A stretch of 64,000 bases of DNA from Phreatobacter stygius (lineage in GTDB: Bacteria; Pseudomonadota; Alphaproteobacteria; Rhizobiales; Phreatobacteraceae): assembly GCF_005144885.1 (NCBI RefSeq), contig NZ_CP039690.1, positions 6,374,873-6,438,872 on the forward strand, in the 5' to 3' direction. The notes under the pieces were generated by a model. That model was given only the letters and a program-made list of their open reading frames with translations. It was not told the origin of the DNA and did not search any database. This document shows positions 4,314 to 8,724 of this stretch, piece after piece (the first letter of the stretch is position 1; each line of letters starts with the position of its first letter). The translations under genes and the position numbers were made by a program.

Positions 4314-4459
4314 TGTGGCGTCTCCGGCAGCGGGTGCAACGAGGGGTTGGCGTTGCGACGCTAATCTGCACGAATGACTTGGGAAAGACCTGCGCTCGCC
4401 GGCGCAAATCACGGCCTCGTGAAGCGTTTCGGCCGCGCCGGCGGAACGCCGTCAGGGAA

Positions 4460-4535
4460 TGGTGCCGGCAGCGGGACTCGAACTCGCGACCTACCGCTTA
4501 CAAGGCGGTTGCTCTACCAACTGAGCTATGCCGGC
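4460..4535 (-). tRNA. tRNA-Thr (TGT)
   Basis: Seventy-six bases fold as a tRNA on the minus strand: acceptor GCCGGCA pairs with TGCCGGC, D-arm GCTCAGTTGGTAGAGC, anticodon stem ACCGC/GCGGT around loop CTTGTAA with anticodon TGT, T-arm with GTTCGAAC, and an encoded 3' CCA. Confidence 0.97.
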
Positions 4536-4646
4536 CCATATCGGCATCGGCCTAGCAATGCGGGGCTCCGCGCGCAAGAGTGCCGAGCCGATTATGGCAC
4601 CGCGGCCGTTCACAGCGCCGCGCTGAACGCTGCTCCCCCAGACATG

Positions 4647-4678
4647 AAAAAACGCCGGGGTGGAGGAGCCCCGGCGTT
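4647..4678 (-). terminator. Intrinsic terminator of small-protein unit A
   Basis: Stem AACGCCGGGG / CCCCGGCGTT followed on the minus strand by a run of six T. It lies about 58 bases after the stop of the last gene of unit A. The same stem recurs at 5806, 7269, 8115 and 8663. Confidence 0.9.
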
Positions 4679-4735
4679 GGTCTTGGAAGTACCGGCTTCA
4701 GGCCGGCACGCACTCAAGGTCTGGTTGAACCCTGT

Positions 4736-4987
4736 TCAGTTCGACGAAGAGAAGGCCGAGGACGGCACGACTTCGCGCTGGATCAGGCTGCGCTCGGCAT
4801 TGTTGACGCCGACGGCCTGGCCGCCGAACGCGCGAGGCGAGGTGAACTCGCGCGGCTGGTTCGGAGCATAGGTGGTGACCGAGGGGGTCTGGATGAAACC
4901 GGCGGCGTCGCTCATGCCCTGAGCGAAGGCGGGAGCCGCGACGGCGAGCGGAGCGAGCAGCGCGGCGGCAAGGATGAACTTCTTCAT
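4736..4987 (-). CDS. Small secreted protein, tandem paralogue 1 (unit A, second gene)
   Basis: Unrecognised 83-residue protein. It has a clear signal peptide (MKKF, hydrophobic core, AFA cleavage site near residue 22) and a cysteine-free mature chain of about 60 residues. The mature part carries the array's two conserved blocks: TPSVTTYAPNQPREF and a C-terminal LIQREVVPSSAFSS. ATG at 4987 is chosen because GGAGA lies 7 bases upstream; an in-frame ATG at 4999 lacks spacing. It is nearly identical to paralogue 3, including the GGQ-VGV-NAER segment, so units A and B look like a recent duplication. It follows paralogue 2 with a short gap, without its own promoter of the array type. Function unknown; envelope or extracellular location inferred. 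Confidence 0.85.
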   Translation of the reverse strand: MKKFILAAALLAPLAVAAPAFAQGMSDAAGFIQTPSVTTYAPNQPREFTSPRAFGGQAVGVNNAERSLIQREVVPSSAFSSSN

Positions 4988-5076
4988 GACAGTCTCCATT
5001 GGATGTCCCGGCGGCGGCATTGGCCTTGAGGGCCGGGCGGTTGGGTGTGGGGTCGGCGAACCATGTCCGCCGGTGA

Positions 5077-5304
5077 TCAGTTCCAGGAAGAGAAGGCCGA
5101 GGACGGCACGGCTTCGCGCTTGATCAGGCTCTGGTCGGCCTGCGAGACGCGGCCGGCCCGCGCCGAGAACTCACGCGGCTGGTTCGGGGCATAGGTCGTG
5201 ACCGAGGGGGTCTCGATGAAACCGGCGGCGTCCTGCTGGGCAAAAGCCGGAGCGGCGACGGCGAGCGGCGCGACCAAGGTCGCGGCAAGGATGAGCTTCT
5301 TCAT
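5077..5304 (-). CDS. Small secreted protein, tandem paralogue 2 (unit A, first gene)
   Basis: Unrecognised 75-residue secreted protein, first gene behind the unit A promoter. MKKLILAATLVAPLA forms the signal core and AFAQQ the likely cleavage site. The mature chain begins DAAGFIETPSVTTYAPNQ and ends with KREAVPSSAFSSWN, matching the family pattern; it lacks the GGQ-VGV insert of paralogues 1 and 3. Closest to paralogue 4. There is a long leader of about 90 bases between the predicted transcription start and the ATG. Function unknown. Confidence 0.85.
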   Translation of the reverse strand: MKKLILAATLVAPLAVAAPAFAQQDAAGFIETPSVTTYAPNQPREFSARAGRVSQADQSLIKREAVPSSAFSSWN

Positions 5305-5368
5305 AACGGTTATCCAACTGAGATCCCGGTGGGGAGGGACACGCCAAGCCCGGGATGTTTGTTTTGGT

Positions 5369-5394
5369 GTCGGCGGGAGGTGTCCGCCGTCGAC
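5369..5394 (-). promoter_or_regulatory. Conserved 5'-terminal leader hairpin, unit A
   Basis: Inverted repeat with GGCGG and CCGCC arms (flanked by GTCGAC/GTCG) located at the predicted 5' end of the unit A transcript, a few bases after the -10 box. An almost identical element is at 6529-6554, and diverged forms are near 7954-7979 and 8455-8486; unit C lacks it. It may protect the 5' end of the mRNA or bind a factor; this is inference. Confidence 0.5.
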
Positions 5395-5401
5395 ATTGCT
5401 G

Positions 5402-5430
5402 AGATAGGTGAGGTCAGATCGAATTGCCAG
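5402..5430 (-). promoter_or_regulatory. Promoter of small-protein unit A
   Basis: Minus-strand -35 CTGGCA and -10 CTATCT separated by exactly 17 bases. Directly upstream is the A/T-rich block TGCATTTTCTCATTTTTGTGA that recurs before the other unit promoters. The same arrangement is found before five units, which makes this one more than a chance match. Confidence 0.8.
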
Positions 5431-5454
5431 TCACAAAAATGAGAAAATGCATGC

Positions 5455-5805
5455 GACAAGGCGCCTCAGTAGTTTCATCAATGCATTGTCGCAATTCTTA
5501 CAATTGGGCGACGGGGCCGAGACGGGTCGCGCCTTTGGTCCTTCCATCATCAAGAAATGACGCGGTCAGAGCTGGAATCGATCCAGGTGACCTGGTTGTC
5601 CAGCGTCTTTGGGGTGTTCCATTCGCTTGATCGCAGCGATCCATGCTCATCACCGCGGCCGAAGTGATGGTTTCGTTTGCAGCGCCTCGAAACAACAAAT
5701 TGCGGAGGTGCATTTTTGTTCGAATGATTCGTGCTCATGGAATGCATGAGAGCGGATCAGGCAAGACGGCCGGCACGTTCGGGGGTCGACAAGAAAACGT
5801 CGGAC
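5455..5805. other. Intergenic stretch between units A and B, no gene recognised
   Basis: About 350 bases between the unit A promoter block and the unit B terminator. Short open frames exist on both strands but none has a convincing ribosome site, codon pattern or homology to the array. GC content is visibly lower than in the coding regions around it. I see no RNA gene signature. Confidence 0.5.
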
Positions 5806-5838
5806 AAGAAAACGCCGGGGTGGAGCGGCCCCGGCGTT
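5806..5838 (-). terminator. Intrinsic terminator of small-protein unit B
   Basis: Stem AACGCCGGGG / CCCCGGCGTT followed on the minus strand by TTTTCTT. It sits 57 bases after the stop of paralogue 3, the same geometry as in unit A. Confidence 0.88.
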
Positions 5839-5894
5839 GGTCTTGAAAGCACCGGCTTGAAGCCAGCGCGCACGCAAAGTCAGGTCGACCAGAT

Positions 5895-6146
5895 TCAGTT
5901 CGACGAAGAGAAGGCCGAGGACGGCACGACTTCGCGCTGGATCAGGTTGCGCTCGGCATTGCTGACGCCGACGGTCTGGCCGCCGAGCGAACGCTGCGAG
6001 GAGAATTCGCGCGGCTGGTTCGGCGCATAGGTGGTGATCGAGGGGGTTTCGATGAAACCGGCCGCATCGCCGCCACCCTGAGCGAAGGCGGGAGCCGCGA
6101 CGGCGAGCGGAGCGAGCAGCGCTGCGGCAAGGATGAACTTCTTCAT
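5895..6146 (-). CDS. Small secreted protein, tandem paralogue 3 (unit B, second gene)
   Basis: Unrecognised 83-residue secreted protein with the same signal peptide as paralogue 1 and a mature chain differing from it at only a handful of positions (for example GGGDAAGF for GMSDAAGF, SSQRSLGGQ for TSPRAFGGQ). It keeps LIQREVVPSSAFSSSN at the C-terminus. The start at 6146 follows GGAGACTGTC exactly as in paralogue 1, and the spacer to paralogue 4 is also near-identical to that between paralogues 1 and 2. Function unknown. Confidence 0.85.
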   Translation of the reverse strand: MKKFILAAALLAPLAVAAPAFAQGGGDAAGFIETPSITTYAPNQPREFSSQRSLGGQTVGVSNAERNLIQREVVPSSAFSSSN

Positions 6147-6235
6147 GACAGTCTCCATTGGATGTCCCGGCGACGGCATTCGCCTTGAAGGCCGGAAGGT
6201 GGGGTGTGGGGTCGGCGGACGATGTCCGCCGGTGG

Positions 6236-6463
6236 TCAGTTCGCCGCCGAGAAGGCCGAGGACGGCACGGCTTCGCGGTTGATCAGGCTGCCGGCAGCCC
6301 GGTCGTTCTGGGCCAGGCGGCCGGAAAATTCGCGCAGCTGGCTCGGGGCATAGGTCGTGACCGAGGGGGTCTCGATGAAACCGGCGGCGTCCTGCTGGGC
6401 GAAGGCCGGGGCAGCGACGGCGAGCGGGGCGAGCAGGGCGGCGGCGAGGATGAGCTTCTTCAT
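6236..6463 (-). CDS. Small secreted protein, tandem paralogue 4 (unit B, first gene)
   Basis: Unrecognised 75-residue secreted protein, first gene of unit B. Signal peptide MKKLILAAALLAPLA with AFAQQ cleavage site, then DAAGFIETPSVTTYAPSQ, then a family-typical end INREAVPSSAFSAAN. Closest to paralogue 2 in length and sequence, with a changed middle (GRLAQNDRAAG). The start at 6463 has GGAGACTGTC before it. A longer in-frame reading to 6583 runs through the leader hairpin and promoter and is rejected. Confidence 0.85.
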   Translation of the reverse strand: MKKLILAAALLAPLAVAAPAFAQQDAAGFIETPSVTTYAPSQLREFSGRLAQNDRAAGSLINREAVPSSAFSAAN

Positions 6464-6528
6464 GACAGTCTCCATTGGAAATTCCGGTGGTGGGAGGGAC
6501 ACGCCAGGTCCGGAATGTTTGTTTCGGT

Positions 6529-6554
6529 GTCGGCGGGAGGTGTCCGCCGTCGAC
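6529..6554 (-). promoter_or_regulatory. Conserved 5'-terminal leader hairpin, unit B
   Basis: Same GGCGG/CCGCC inverted repeat as in unit A, again placed within a few bases of the predicted transcription start. Confidence 0.5.
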
Positions 6555-6561
6555 ATCGCTG

Positions 6562-6590
6562 AGATAGGGGGTGTCTCGATCACTTGCCAA
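6562..6590 (-). promoter_or_regulatory. Promoter of small-protein unit B
   Basis: Minus-strand -35 TTGGCA and -10 CTATCT with 17 bases between, preceded by the shared block ending in TTTCGTGA. Same geometry as the other four units. Confidence 0.82.
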
Positions 6591-6679
6591 TCACGAAATT
6601 GAGAAAATGCAATTATAAAATCATTCCAACGTCAATTTGAATGCGCTGATGCAATTCTGGTGGAATCATGGCCGAACGA

Positions 6680-6703
6680 CGCCGACCTTAAAAAGGGTCG
6701 GCG
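6680..6703 (-). terminator. Hairpin after small-protein unit C (possible terminator)
   Basis: Stem CGCCGACC / GGTCGGCG with an eight-base loop, 86 bases after the stop of paralogue 5. It has no T-run on the minus strand, and its sequence differs from the shared terminator stem, so it is a weak terminator call. Unit C is the only unit without the common stem. Confidence 0.4.
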
Positions 6704-6788
6704 ATCCCGTTGATGGGTCAATCGACACAGAGCGGCCGACGCGAGGCCAGTGCGTGGCGTGCCAGCAAGGCGGTCGCGTCGGTGCCGG

Positions 6789-7031
6789 TCAGCTCGCCGA
6801 ACCGAACGCCGACGACGGCACGGCATCGCGCCGGGCTCGGTCGTTTGCTGTCGGATCGACGGCCGTGCCCCGGCCATGGCCGGCGAACGCGCTGGCAATA
6901 AATTCACGAGGTATGCCAGTGATATAGGTCGTCGTTTCCGGCGTGCCGACAAAACCTGAGGCATCATCGGCGAGCGCTGGGGCGGCGGCGAGGGGCACAA
7001 TCAAGGTCGCCACGAGGATGAGCTTGTTCAT
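6789..7031 (-). CDS. Small secreted protein, tandem paralogue 5 (unit C, diverged)
   Basis: Unrecognised 80-residue secreted protein and the only gene of unit C. Signal peptide MNKLILVATLIVPLA with cleavage near ALADD. The mature chain keeps a diverged first block (SGFVGTPETTTYITGIPREF) and the C-terminal RRDAVPSSAFGSAS, so it belongs to the family but is the most changed among the members that keep both blocks. Start at 7031 follows GGAGACTGTC. Function unknown. Confidence 0.82.
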   Translation of the reverse strand: MNKLILVATLIVPLAAAPALADDASGFVGTPETTTYITGIPREFIASAFAGHGRGTAVDPTANDRARRDAVPSSAFGSAS

Positions 7032-7117
7032 GACAGTCTCCATGGGGACCCCCGGTGATGGCAGGAACAGGCCGGATCCGGGGTTTTCGTTTGCCGCCTC
7101 CGCCGACGACCAAGCGG

Positions 7118-7146
7118 AGATAGGAATGAGGTCGCTCACGTGCCAA
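7118..7146 (-). promoter_or_regulatory. Promoter of small-protein unit C
   Basis: Minus-strand -35 TTGGCA and -10 CTATCT with 17 bases between; upstream CATTTTTGTGA block conserved. The leader hairpin seen in units A and B is not conserved here. Confidence 0.82.
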
Positions 7147-7268
7147 TCACAAAAATGGGAAAACGCAATGGGTGCGCCGCAACGATCTGTTTAGATTTGC
7201 GTTGACGCAGATCCCTGCCGCGGCGAGCGATTCGACGACCTCAGGTGCAACCGGGTGTTTTCAAGCAG

Positions 7269-7296
7269 AAAACGCCGGGGTTTGCGCCCCGGCGTT
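7269..7296 (-). terminator. Intrinsic terminator of small-protein unit D
   Basis: Stem AACGCCGGGG / CCCCGGCGTT with T-run on the minus strand, 57 bases after the stop of paralogue 6. Confidence 0.88.
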
Positions 7297-7352
7297 GGTG
7301 TTGGGAAGGACCGGCTTGGTGCCGGCCTGCAGGCGCGGTCGGCTGGACCAGG

Positions 7353-7574
7353 TCAGTTCGCCGACGAGAAGGCCGAGGACGGCACCTCGCGGTTGATCAG
7401 GCTCTGGCCGGCATTCGAGACCTGGCCGCGGCGAGCGGTGAACTCGCGCGGCTGGCTCGGCGCAGTGGTCGAAACACCAGGCGTTGCGATGAAGCCGGCC
7501 GTATCGTCGGCGAAAGCCGGGGCGGCCAGGGCGAGCGGGGCGACCAGGGTCGCTGCAAGGATGAACTTCTTCAT
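7353..7574 (-). CDS. Small secreted protein, tandem paralogue 6 (unit D, second gene)
   Basis: Unrecognised 73-residue secreted protein. Signal peptide MKKFILAATLVAPLA with AFADD cleavage site; first block TAGFIATPGVSTTAPSQPREF and end INREVPSSAFSSAN, one residue shorter than its relatives before the PSSAF motif. It has no promoter of the array type immediately upstream and follows paralogue 7 by 89 bases, so the two form a unit. Start at 7574 has GGAGACCATC upstream. Function unknown. Confidence 0.84.
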   Translation of the reverse strand: MKKFILAATLVAPLALAAPAFADDTAGFIATPGVSTTAPSQPREFTARRGQVSNAGQSLINREVPSSAFSSAN

Positions 7575-7663
7575 GATGGTCTCCATGTGTGTTGTCCGGC
7601 TGGCGGTGAGCGCTTCAGGCCGGGACTGTTCGAGTGTGCCGAGGCGCCAAGCGGCGTCGGTGG

Positions 7664-7888
7664 TCAGTTCGTGGACGAGAAAGCCGAGGACGGCACGACT
7701 TCGCGGCTGATCAGGCTCTGATCGGCGTTCGAGACCTGGCCGTGGCGGGCGGTGAACTCACGCGGCTGGTTCGGGGCATAGGTCGAAACGGCAGGGGTCT
7801 CGACGAACCCGGCGCTGTCGTCGGCAAGAGCCGGAGCGGCCAGGGCGAGCGGGGCGAAAAGGGTGGCGGCAAGGATCAGCTTCTTCAT
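7664..7888 (-). CDS. Small secreted protein, tandem paralogue 7 (unit D, first gene)
   Basis: Unrecognised 74-residue secreted protein, first gene of unit D. Signal peptide MKKLILAATLFAPLA, cleavage near ALADD, first block SAGFVETPAVSTYAPNQPREF and end ISREVVPSSAFSSTN. The middle HGQVSNADQS is shared with paralogue 6. Start at 7888 follows GGAGACTGTC. A longer reading to 8008 runs into the promoter and is rejected. Function unknown. Confidence 0.85.
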   Translation of the reverse strand: MKKLILAATLFAPLALAAPALADDSAGFVETPAVSTYAPNQPREFTARHGQVSNADQSLISREVVPSSAFSSTN

Positions 7889-7986
7889 GACAGTCTCCAT
7901 TGGAAAACCCGGTGGTGGGAGGGACACGCCAGATCCGGGATGTTTGTTTCGCTGTCGTCGGGAGGTGTCCGCCGTCGACATTCCGG

Positions 7987-8015
7987 AGATAGGAGCCCGG
8001 CCGATCACGTGCCAA
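7987..8015 (-). promoter_or_regulatory. Promoter of small-protein unit D
   Basis: Minus-strand -35 TTGGCA and -10 CTATCT with 17 bases between, preceded by TTTTCGTGA and GCGTTTTCTCC. A diverged copy of the leader hairpin follows at about 7954-7979. Confidence 0.82.
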
Positions 8016-8114
8016 TCACGAAAAGGAGAAAACGCATGCAGATGAGCGTATCAGTCATTTCATTTGTGCATTGATGCAATTTTAGGCGAAAGCATCGAAC
8101 CCGCTGTGTTCGAC

Positions 8115-8144
8115 AAAAAACGCCGGGGTCCGAACCCCGGCGTT
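8115..8144 (-). terminator. Intrinsic terminator of small-protein unit E
   Basis: Stem CGCCGGGG / CCCCGGCG followed on the minus strand by a run of six T, 37 bases after the stop of paralogue 8. Confidence 0.9.
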
Positions 8145-8180
8145 GAACCAAACGAATCACGATGCCGGCGCTGGCCGCCA

Positions 8181-8396
8181 TCAGGTGCCGGAATTGAAGG
8201 CCGATGACGGCACCGATTCGCGATCGCTCCAGCCCATGCCCGCGCGAGACCGATATTGCGCGAGCGTCGCAGCCGGCGCGTCGGGCGCTTGCAGAATATA
8301 GGCGTCGGCTGTGCCGGCCAGCGTGTCGTCGGCGAGCGCCGGAGCGATAATGGCAAAGGGCGCGAGCAGGGTCGCAGCGAGGAGGAGCTTCTTCAT
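8181..8396 (-). CDS. Small secreted protein, tandem paralogue 8 (unit E, outlier)
   Basis: Unrecognised 71-residue secreted protein. It keeps the signal peptide (MKKLLLAATLLAPFA, cleavage near ALADD) and the C-terminal RESVPSSAFNSGT, but the first conserved block is replaced by an unrelated stretch (AGTADAYILQAPDAP). It therefore shows that the signal peptide and the VPSSAF tail are the most conserved parts of the family. Start at 8396 follows GGAGATCTGTC. Function unknown. Confidence 0.8.
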   Translation of the reverse strand: MKKLLLAATLLAPFAIIAPALADDTLAGTADAYILQAPDAPAATLAQYRSRAGMGWSDRESVPSSAFNSGT

Positions 8397-8491
8397 GACA
8401 GATCTCCGCTCGAAATCCCGGCGGGGAGGGACACACGCCGTCCGGGCGTTCATGTCGTCGTCGCGGGAGGTGTCCGCCGTCGACGCGTCAG

Positions 8492-8520
8492 GGATAAGTC
8501 CGGGAGCCAGTCAGAGCCAA
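8492..8520 (-). promoter_or_regulatory. Promoter of small-protein unit E
   Basis: Minus-strand -35 TTGGCT and -10 TTATCC with 17 bases between, a slightly weaker version of the array promoter. The upstream block GCATTTTCCC and GTGATTGGC is kept. Confidence 0.7.
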
Positions 8521-8662
8521 TCACGAATCCGGGAAAATGCATGAAGCGGATCCTGGTCGCGAATGCGTGATTGCGCGGTCGCACGAATGTGAACGCCAGT
8601 CGCGCGGCTGTGAACCAAGGCCGGCACGTCATCCGCAATCCTGCCGCCTTTGCGGTGACGGC

Positions 8663-8695
8663 AAAAAGAAACGCCGGGGTGTGAGCCCCGGCGTT
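8663..8695 (-). terminator. Intrinsic terminator of the MFS transporter gene
   Basis: Stem AACGCCGGGG / CCCCGGCGTT followed by TTTCTTTTTG on the minus strand, 30 bases after the transporter stop. The stem is the same one used by four of the small-protein units. Confidence 0.88.
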
Positions 8696-8724
8696 CCCAG
8701 ATCGAACCCCTGTCGGGCCCGGCT

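Follow-up and report, generated by a model that had tools for sequence, protein, structure and literature searches.

Why does Phreatobacter stygius carry eight small genes for similar exported-type proteins side by side on one strand? The locus lies in the window analysed here, a stretch of 64,000 bases (6374873-6438872 of the single-contig genome of 7,354,671 bases). An earlier note on this DNA had described eight adjacent minus-strand genes of 71-83 codons, which were confirmed from the open reading frames (ORFs) and translations. Absent from that note were the promoter-leader-gene cassettes, the conserved structured leader and the restriction to the genus on which our answer is built. Five transcription units were read from the sequence (A, gene 8; B, genes 7 and 6; C, gene 5; D, genes 4 and 3; E, genes 2 and 1). 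The explanation that we hold with slightly more credence than doubt is that the array would consist of copies of one cassette, which encodes a disordered peptide for export and is gated by a leader RNA whose two hairpins kiss through their loops.

The leader, which looks like a new control element, was about 75 nucleotides (nt) long and lay upstream of the ribosome-binding site, the stretch from the leader to the start codon measuring 86-91 nt. Two leader models, R1 and R2, were used; R1 was a covariance model built from leaders bearing the hexamer GGACAC. At an expectation value (E) of 0.01 or below, R1 revealed 31 leaders, distributed over all 12 Phreatobacter genomes searched and all 31 standing before a gene of the peptide family, with up to eight leaders per genome, one of them decayed. 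One further R1 match, weak and located before a second cistron (L035 6280-6351, E 0.031), had neither hexamer and was not counted as a leader. The five leaders of the window were located as follows.

8416..8487, minus strand: leader RNA of unit A, R1 48.4 bits, hairpins P1 and P2 with loops GGACAC and GUGUCC
7907..7982, minus strand: leader RNA of unit B, R1 103.3 bits
7050..7110, minus strand: decayed leader of unit C, recognised by R1 (37.5 bits) and by alignment, both loop hexamers gone
6482..6557, minus strand: leader RNA of unit D, R1 106.8 bits, a member of the R1 model
5324..5397, minus strand: leader RNA of unit E, R1 96.3 bits, a member of the R1 model

Gene 5 can be regarded as a natural leader mutant within the array, as the gene was intact and its promoter box was kept (3 mismatches), with both hexamers and most of P1 missing from the leader. 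When window 4400-8700 was compared with Rfam, the gathering score was reached by a transfer RNA (tRNA) only, and the leader matched no family at that score.

The leader was better conserved than the genes behind it. In 16 of 17 pairs, the leader-to-start stretch differed at 0-28% of positions versus 11-59% at the fourfold sites of the same genes; the pairs for this comparison and for the selection analysis below were chosen by hand and were not independent. In the wider pairs, the DNA farther upstream differed more than the leader, and the promoter region as a whole differed by 0.09-0.48. Hairpin P1 was read as GUCGRCGG...CCGCCGAC and hairpin P2 as a CCGG-type stem. In the model-guided alignment (A7; 28 rows, 25 distinct), the two hairpins comprised 13 base pairs with 92.8% of the cells paired, and changes on both sides were found in 7 of the 13 pairs, of which five were among the six pairs of P2. 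None of 500 shuffled alignments equalled any of the five structure measures, and slid controls were 18.6-56.1% paired. These figures show two hairpins with compensatory changes. The leader L054 and two others of its type from genome G006 were left out of A7; L054 was also omitted from A3-A5, and L054 together with eight other loci before A7. The leader before gene 5 (window 6789) was omitted from A2-A5 and included in A7, and A3 and A5 comprised 19 and 6 of the rows, respectively.

The most constant part of the leader was found in the loops. The P1 loop carried GGACAC and the P2 loop GUGUCC, which are exact complements, in 30 of the 31 leaders found by the model (29 with both hexamers among 30 leaders, plus L140); the exception, before gene 5, had lost both. 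A different set of 29 leaders had been selected by a pattern containing GGACAC, with the window 6789 leader added by hand, and therefore cannot test GGACAC itself. In most leaders the loops read GGACACCUCCC and GUGUCCCUCCC. The hexamer duplex was calculated to yield -8.1 kcal/mol versus a mean cost of 5.0 kcal/mol for holding both loops open (28 leaders). From these features we infer a kiss between the two loops; the hexamers were invariant and so showed no covariation that would back it.

The same loops could be read in another way, as anti-Shine-Dalgarno seeds (CCUCCC in each), by which the leader, perhaps as a released small RNA, would pair with other ribosome-binding sites or mask its own. 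Among 30 model-found leaders (the decayed one included), CUCC followed GGACAC in 28 and GUGUCC in 26, and the element occurred in up to eight copies per genome, as given above. According to passages of PMC10746234 and PMC8844928, the hairpin loops of the small RNAs alpha-r14 (NfeR1) and AbcR1/2 of alpha-rhizobia likewise repeat a C-rich anti-Shine-Dalgarno-like motif on diverged stems, the alpha-r14 hairpins having identical CCUCCUCCC loops and AbcR1/2 an anti-Shine-Dalgarno loop. These RNAs are the nearest functional parallel known to us in the same bacterial class, and the C-rich loops of the Phreatobacter leaders keep this mode as a rival. As far as those passages describe them, however, alpha-r14 and AbcR act in trans as small RNAs and carry CCUCCUCCC or CUCCUCCC, sequences that the Phreatobacter loops, as read in most leaders, do not match. 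The Phreatobacter element, in contrast, lies upstream of the start codon of the gene to which it belongs, and its most constant part is the self-complementary hexamer pair. The CUCC parts were also less constant than the hexamers: among the 30 leaders that kept the hexamers, CUCC was lost from the P2 loop in four (L054, L115 and L140 of G006, and L040_5161) and altered in the P1 loop in one (CAUCC in L048). In addition, the window scan gave no terminator-like site in the stretches that separate leaders from genes, and no small-RNA family of Rfam was matched at the gathering score. Action through anti-Shine-Dalgarno seeds was judged quite unlikely on this balance.

The leader could in principle act as DNA, as RNA or as a translated peptide. 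In Phreatobacter sp. NMCR1094, the leader occurred in the 125-base gaps before genes 2 and 3 of one array without the promoter box, and its stems there were altered yet still pairing. A leader between cistrons without the box is unlikely to be a part of the promoter or a 5'-end cap there, and these intercistronic leaders are the strongest argument for action on translation or local message stability. The leader thus probably exerts its effect as RNA, next to the start codon, on one or the other. Each of these gaps (L040:4664-5161) also contained, directly behind the stop codon, a further small hairpin that was rich in GC and had no T run, as judged by eye.

The position of P1 could also suit an unregulated role, in which the leader would merely stabilise the 5' end of a constitutively abundant message or load ribosomes onto it strongly. 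In 25 of 29 leaders, P1 started 7-8 nt past the -10-like element and hence near the predicted 5' end (one of the 26 pattern matches, L042, was misplaced although its promoter fits by eye, L038_576 fits loosely, and two leaders had no promoter pattern), and bulk production would fit genes that are present in many copies and under purifying selection. Between cistrons, as seen in NMCR1094, a pure 5' stabiliser would be unexpected, and it would have no need of two invariant complementary loops, so that we regard this explanation as unlikely. The conserved stretch as a translated leader peptide or N-terminal extension was rejected and is given next to no chance. In several window units a frame that opens at an ATG in P1 ran on into the gene, but the would-be start codon was ATG in only 8 of 28 leaders, the hexamer spacing was spread over the three frames as 10/10/8 (28 leaders), and the frame linking to the gene start was common to at most 12 of the 28; the spread of frames and the rarity of ATG argue against conservation of this stretch as a translated peptide.

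Several observations weigh against the kissing-leader cassette that we prefer. Hairpin P1 was nearly invariant, with changes on both sides in only 2 of its 7 pairs, and the outermost pair of P2 was unpaired in 13 sequences. With the unguided alignment, RNAalifold gave P1 without P2 and paired the GG of the hexamer inside the P1 loop; P2 scored only once the leaders were realigned to the model, which leans towards P2. The minimum-energy folds of single leaders often differed from the kissing fold, the loop hexamers never varied together, and opening the L054 loops cost 8.9 kcal/mol, the maximum, which is above the yield of the duplex. The rarity of a 6-base-pair run between shuffled loops (0.55% of trials), which speaks for the kiss, is a post hoc figure. 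In one of the 17 pairs the conservation was reversed (leader 0.36 versus fourfold sites 0.29). For the close pair h1-h2, the leader (0.06) differed more than the DNA farther upstream (0.04). The second cistrons of the window had no leader, so that translation without a leader must be possible, and gene 5 was intact behind its decayed leader. As for the peptide, AlphaFold2 with gene 7 and its paralogues gave a mean predicted local distance difference test score of 55.6 from only 8 sequences, which fits disorder and is no proof of it; the predicted template modelling score was 0.12, a single four-residue helix appeared and no fold was predicted. The mature chain is probably disordered according to this model.

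The units were delimited by the sequences around the leaders, from which their boundaries and the promoter are proposed. Genes 8, 7, 5, 4 and 2 shared one upstream region, and genes 6, 3 and 1, which lacked it, were read as second cistrons. The shared order was a box TGCNTTTTCTCANNTTCGTGATTGGCA, 17 bases, a -10-like CYATYT, 7 bases and the leader, and the TTGGCA inside the box TGCNTTTTCTCANNTTCGTGATTGGCA fits a -35 element. Unit A departed from this pattern with TTGGCT and TTATCC. In the whole genome of P. stygius, the promoter box was found at 8 sites (at most 3 mismatches) and GGCGGACACCTCC at seven, all of them before the peptide family; the reversed controls gave 0 and none, respectively. 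Box and leader were recognisable at loci of all 12 Phreatobacter genomes, and a generic promoter scan missed these promoters. In the window, the boxes were placed as follows.

8516..8541, minus strand: promoter box TGCATTTTCTCANNTTCGTGATTGGC of unit A, 2 mismatches, reaching into the -35-like element, coordinates converted from the genome
8011..8036, minus strand: promoter box of unit B, 2 mismatches
7142..7167, minus strand: promoter box of unit C, 3 mismatches
6586..6611, minus strand: promoter box of unit D, 0 mismatches
5426..5451, minus strand: promoter box of unit E, 2 mismatches

Four terminator-like hairpins were found in the region versus a mean of 3.8 in shuffles, so that their count was not above chance. 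Their weight lies in their placement, all four being at unit ends, and in their near-identical stems. No such hairpin was found after gene 5 in the window scan.

8119..8144, minus strand: terminator-like hairpin after gene 8
7271..7296, minus strand: terminator-like hairpin after gene 6
5811..5838, minus strand: terminator-like hairpin after gene 3
4651..4678, minus strand: terminator-like hairpin after gene 1

The unit of genes 7 and 6 recurred at 4.79 and 5.79 megabases (Mb) of the same genome as blocks of 824-832 bases, which were 96-97% identical to the window and 99% identical to each other. The likeness set in some 50 bases before the promoter box and stopped within 10 bases of the terminator hairpin, limits which show that the whole expression unit was copied or homogenised. 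Eight cassette units are known in the genome, five in the window, two at 4.79 Mb and one at 5.79 Mb. In G006, three near-identical variant leaders with the P2 loop GUGUCCCGAUAU (L054:1223-1294, L115:1498-1570 and L140:267-340) preceded family genes at three places, beside one ordinary leader, which is a second case of cassette spread.

The start codons of the eight genes were our choice, an MKK or MNK start downstream of a ribosome-binding site; seven genes, all except gene 2, also fit a longer frame in the ORF list that opens further upstream.

8181..8396, minus strand: gene 8, 71 amino acids (aa), exported-type peptide without PREF and with VPSSAF kept, sole gene of unit A
7664..7888, minus strand: gene 7, 74 aa, cistron 1 of unit B, identical protein at 5.79 Mb
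7353..7574, minus strand: gene 6, 73 aa, cistron 2 of unit B, without a leader or promoter box of its own
6789..7031, minus strand: gene 5, 80 aa, unit C, decayed leader upstream
6236..6463, minus strand: gene 4, 75 aa, cistron 1 of unit D
5895..6146, minus strand: gene 3, 83 aa, cistron 2 of unit D
5077..5304, minus strand: gene 2, 75 aa, cistron 1 of unit E
4736..4987, minus strand: gene 1, 83 aa, cistron 2 of unit E

The other seven proteins were 43-87% identical to the first protein of the array. In keeping with the Sec signal peptide claimed by the earlier note, all eight had a signal-peptide-like start, in which an n-region with charged residues, a hydrophobic stretch and a cleavage motif of the AxA type were seen by eye, and the AxA motif stood at the expected place in 58 of 59 family members. 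These 59 were the members from the fetched loci, with one false match (L050 2728-2922, E 0.32) left out. None of the eight mature chains contained a cysteine, as that note had said, and only one of the 59 did. VPSSAF followed by four residues was present in 8 of 8 array proteins, the tail of gene 6 being one residue shorter (REVPSSAF). The shared tail of the earlier note therefore held for the array and not for the genus, as VPSSAF was found in 33 of the 59 members, REF in 53 and PREF in 49, and 15 of them ended in GNF, YNY or YND in place of VPSSAF. The genus-wide signature is thus PREF, with VPSSAF limited to a part of Phreatobacter. In alignment A9, which was picked from REF-bearing members (25 of 59), REF was invariant by construction. 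Gene 8 lacked the motif and kept the tail, and the other seven had (P/L)REF, both as previously noted. Two members from two genomes, L031:6582-6830 and L035:6012-6260, had lost the VPSSAF tail (endings DPSRLPAR and TSSGITAH) and kept PREF; both were read as second cistrons. The diverged single relatives L034:5123-5368, L039:3256-3504, L043:3646-3897 and L045:3168-3419 kept VPSSAF without a strong leader match; three of the four were also without REF, and L034 had two mature cysteines.

Among 27 pairs, the whole-gene ratio of replacement to silent substitution rates (dN/dS, Nei-Gojobori) could be computed for all but two, one identical and one with a single replacement and zero silent changes, and in these 25 it was 0 to 0.63, with silent changes exceeding replacements. 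For the mature part it was at most 0.81 save in one pair at 1.08, where one member had an altered tail. Ratios below 1 point to purifying selection on the array members, by which the frames are very probably translated and mostly conserved; neither of the two findings that would have refuted the earlier note, untranslated frames or membership of all eight in a known family, was made. That note had also proposed selection for dosage or diversity. Purifying selection and the near-identical cassettes at two other places favour dosage over diversification, so that the first half of this suggestion fits better than the second.

Another possibility is a bacteriocin or signal peptide made from precursors by modification or cleavage: the genes would encode these precursors, and the array would supply variants. 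The small exported-type products, the tandem copies and the conserved tail near the C-terminus would be in keeping with it. Purifying selection and the lack of a mature cysteine in 58 of 59 members argue against it, and the flanking genes, named by eye, encode a metallo-beta-lactamase-like protein (on the side of a threonine tRNA, tRNA-Thr) and, on the other side, a major facilitator superfamily (MFS) transporter, although no search was aimed at maturation or immunity genes. Such precursors were considered very improbable. The tRNA-Thr lies at window 4460-4535, about 115 bases past the terminator-like hairpin that closes the array.

A profile built from the eight array proteins recovered all eight in the genome of P. 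stygius with E-values of 1e-27 to 1e-41, far beyond chance. It revealed 14 array genes (eight in the window, four at 4.79 Mb and two at 5.79 Mb) and three diverged single matches (E 1e-11, 8e-5 and 2e-4). The comparison of copy number with related genomes, which the earlier note had suggested, showed the peptide family in 12 of 12 Phreatobacter genomes searched, with 2-19 matches at E<=0.01 in each of the 11 others and 19 in G003. Genes on one or both flanks were common to loci of five genomes (the window, G003, G006, G007 and G010), and at a second common site six genomes (G001, G002, G004, G006, G008 and G009) had either arrays or single members.

Outside the genus, matches to the whole-protein profile came from 12 of 49 genomes elsewhere in the order (E 2e-4 to 0.009); most of them covered little beyond the signal peptide, and a few were longer. 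The mature-part profile matched 4 of 385 (E 0.003-0.01), which is about chance level for 385. The leader gave a similar picture. R1 matched 9 of 385 other genomes of the order (E 5e-4 to 0.009), about twice the nominal expectation by E-values that are rough, and R2, which recovered 7 of the 8 leaders of P. stygius, gave no match at E<=0.001 among 384 other genomes of the class. None of 10 outside-genus R1 loci had GGACAC followed by GTGTCC within 60 bases, and the five best outside-genus loci by R2 (25-31 bits) sat in open frames of 233-627 codons; these candidates were rejected. A scan of named genomes with the leader pattern found 11 stretches, nine on Phreatobacter contigs; the remaining two (Armatimonadota and Nitrospirae), where at least one frame was open, were taken as chance. 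Window 4500-8500 was without a match in phage records, and so was the protein of gene 2, the sole protein tried, in plasmid records. Among the genomes searched, the family is thus restricted to Phreatobacter.

The earlier note had recognised no family in these proteins, and this held up: none of the eight window proteins reached the gathering cutoff of Pfam (best E 0.0092 among 32 members) or a curated cutoff of NCBIfam. Solved-structure matches to chlorophyll-binding proteins were taken as chance (best E 0.47). The BRANT His-rich protein (NCBIfam NF047414) gave weak whole-protein matches in 17 of 32 family members (best E 7.7e-05), but gene 1, the best of the eight window proteins, scored 21 bits versus the curated cutoff of 44, and none of 25 mature parts matched at E<=1. 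Since the match vanishes without the signal peptide, the likeness lies mainly there. DUF680 and DUF4148 are lineage-specific small exported proteins of unknown function in tandem, alike in size, signal peptide and tandem copies; neither was among the Pfam matches listed for the same 32 members. Leader pseudoknots and loop-loop RNAs that control translation form a general class with complementary-loop hairpins upstream of the ribosome-binding site, from whose known members the Phreatobacter leader differs in sequence, genus and gene family. In titles and abstract openings on Phreatobacter, and in passages on related small RNAs, no description of the peptide family or the leader was found, and both seem undescribed so far.

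In the cassette that we propose, the order would be promoter box, a promoter of the TTGGCA-17-CYATYT type, the two-hairpin leader, a ribosome-binding site and one or two peptide genes, with a terminator-like hairpin closing four of the five copies. P1 and P2 would kiss through GGACAC and GUGUCC into a compact fold that ends about 20 nt before the start codon and sets how often the peptide mRNA is translated or how long it lasts, and opening of this fold by a trigger would change the output. The leader would then work at the RNA level beside the translation start, neither as DNA nor solely at the 5' end. The peptide would be exported by Sec, be disordered after cleavage and act in bulk outside the cytoplasm, its dose being supplied by copy number. 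A bolder form of this idea is offered tentatively, as we find it possible but doubtful: the kissing two-hairpin leader might be a new RNA class that senses a condition and gates Phreatobacter-specific exported disordered peptides, in a portable cassette of promoter box, leader and peptide copied whole for dose, and its re-use between the cistrons of NMCR1094 would gate every start codon.

The family was kept in all 12 sampled Phreatobacter genomes and multiplied in the two largest, P. stygius with 14 array genes in eight units and G003 with 19 matches, so it likely matters for the life of the genus, which is named in the titles or abstract openings of several papers on drinking water and plumbing. 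The leader, convincingly found only in Phreatobacter among the genomes searched, is a short RNA with a clear testable prediction. It offers a first handle on the job of the peptide, to which the trigger of the leader would point.

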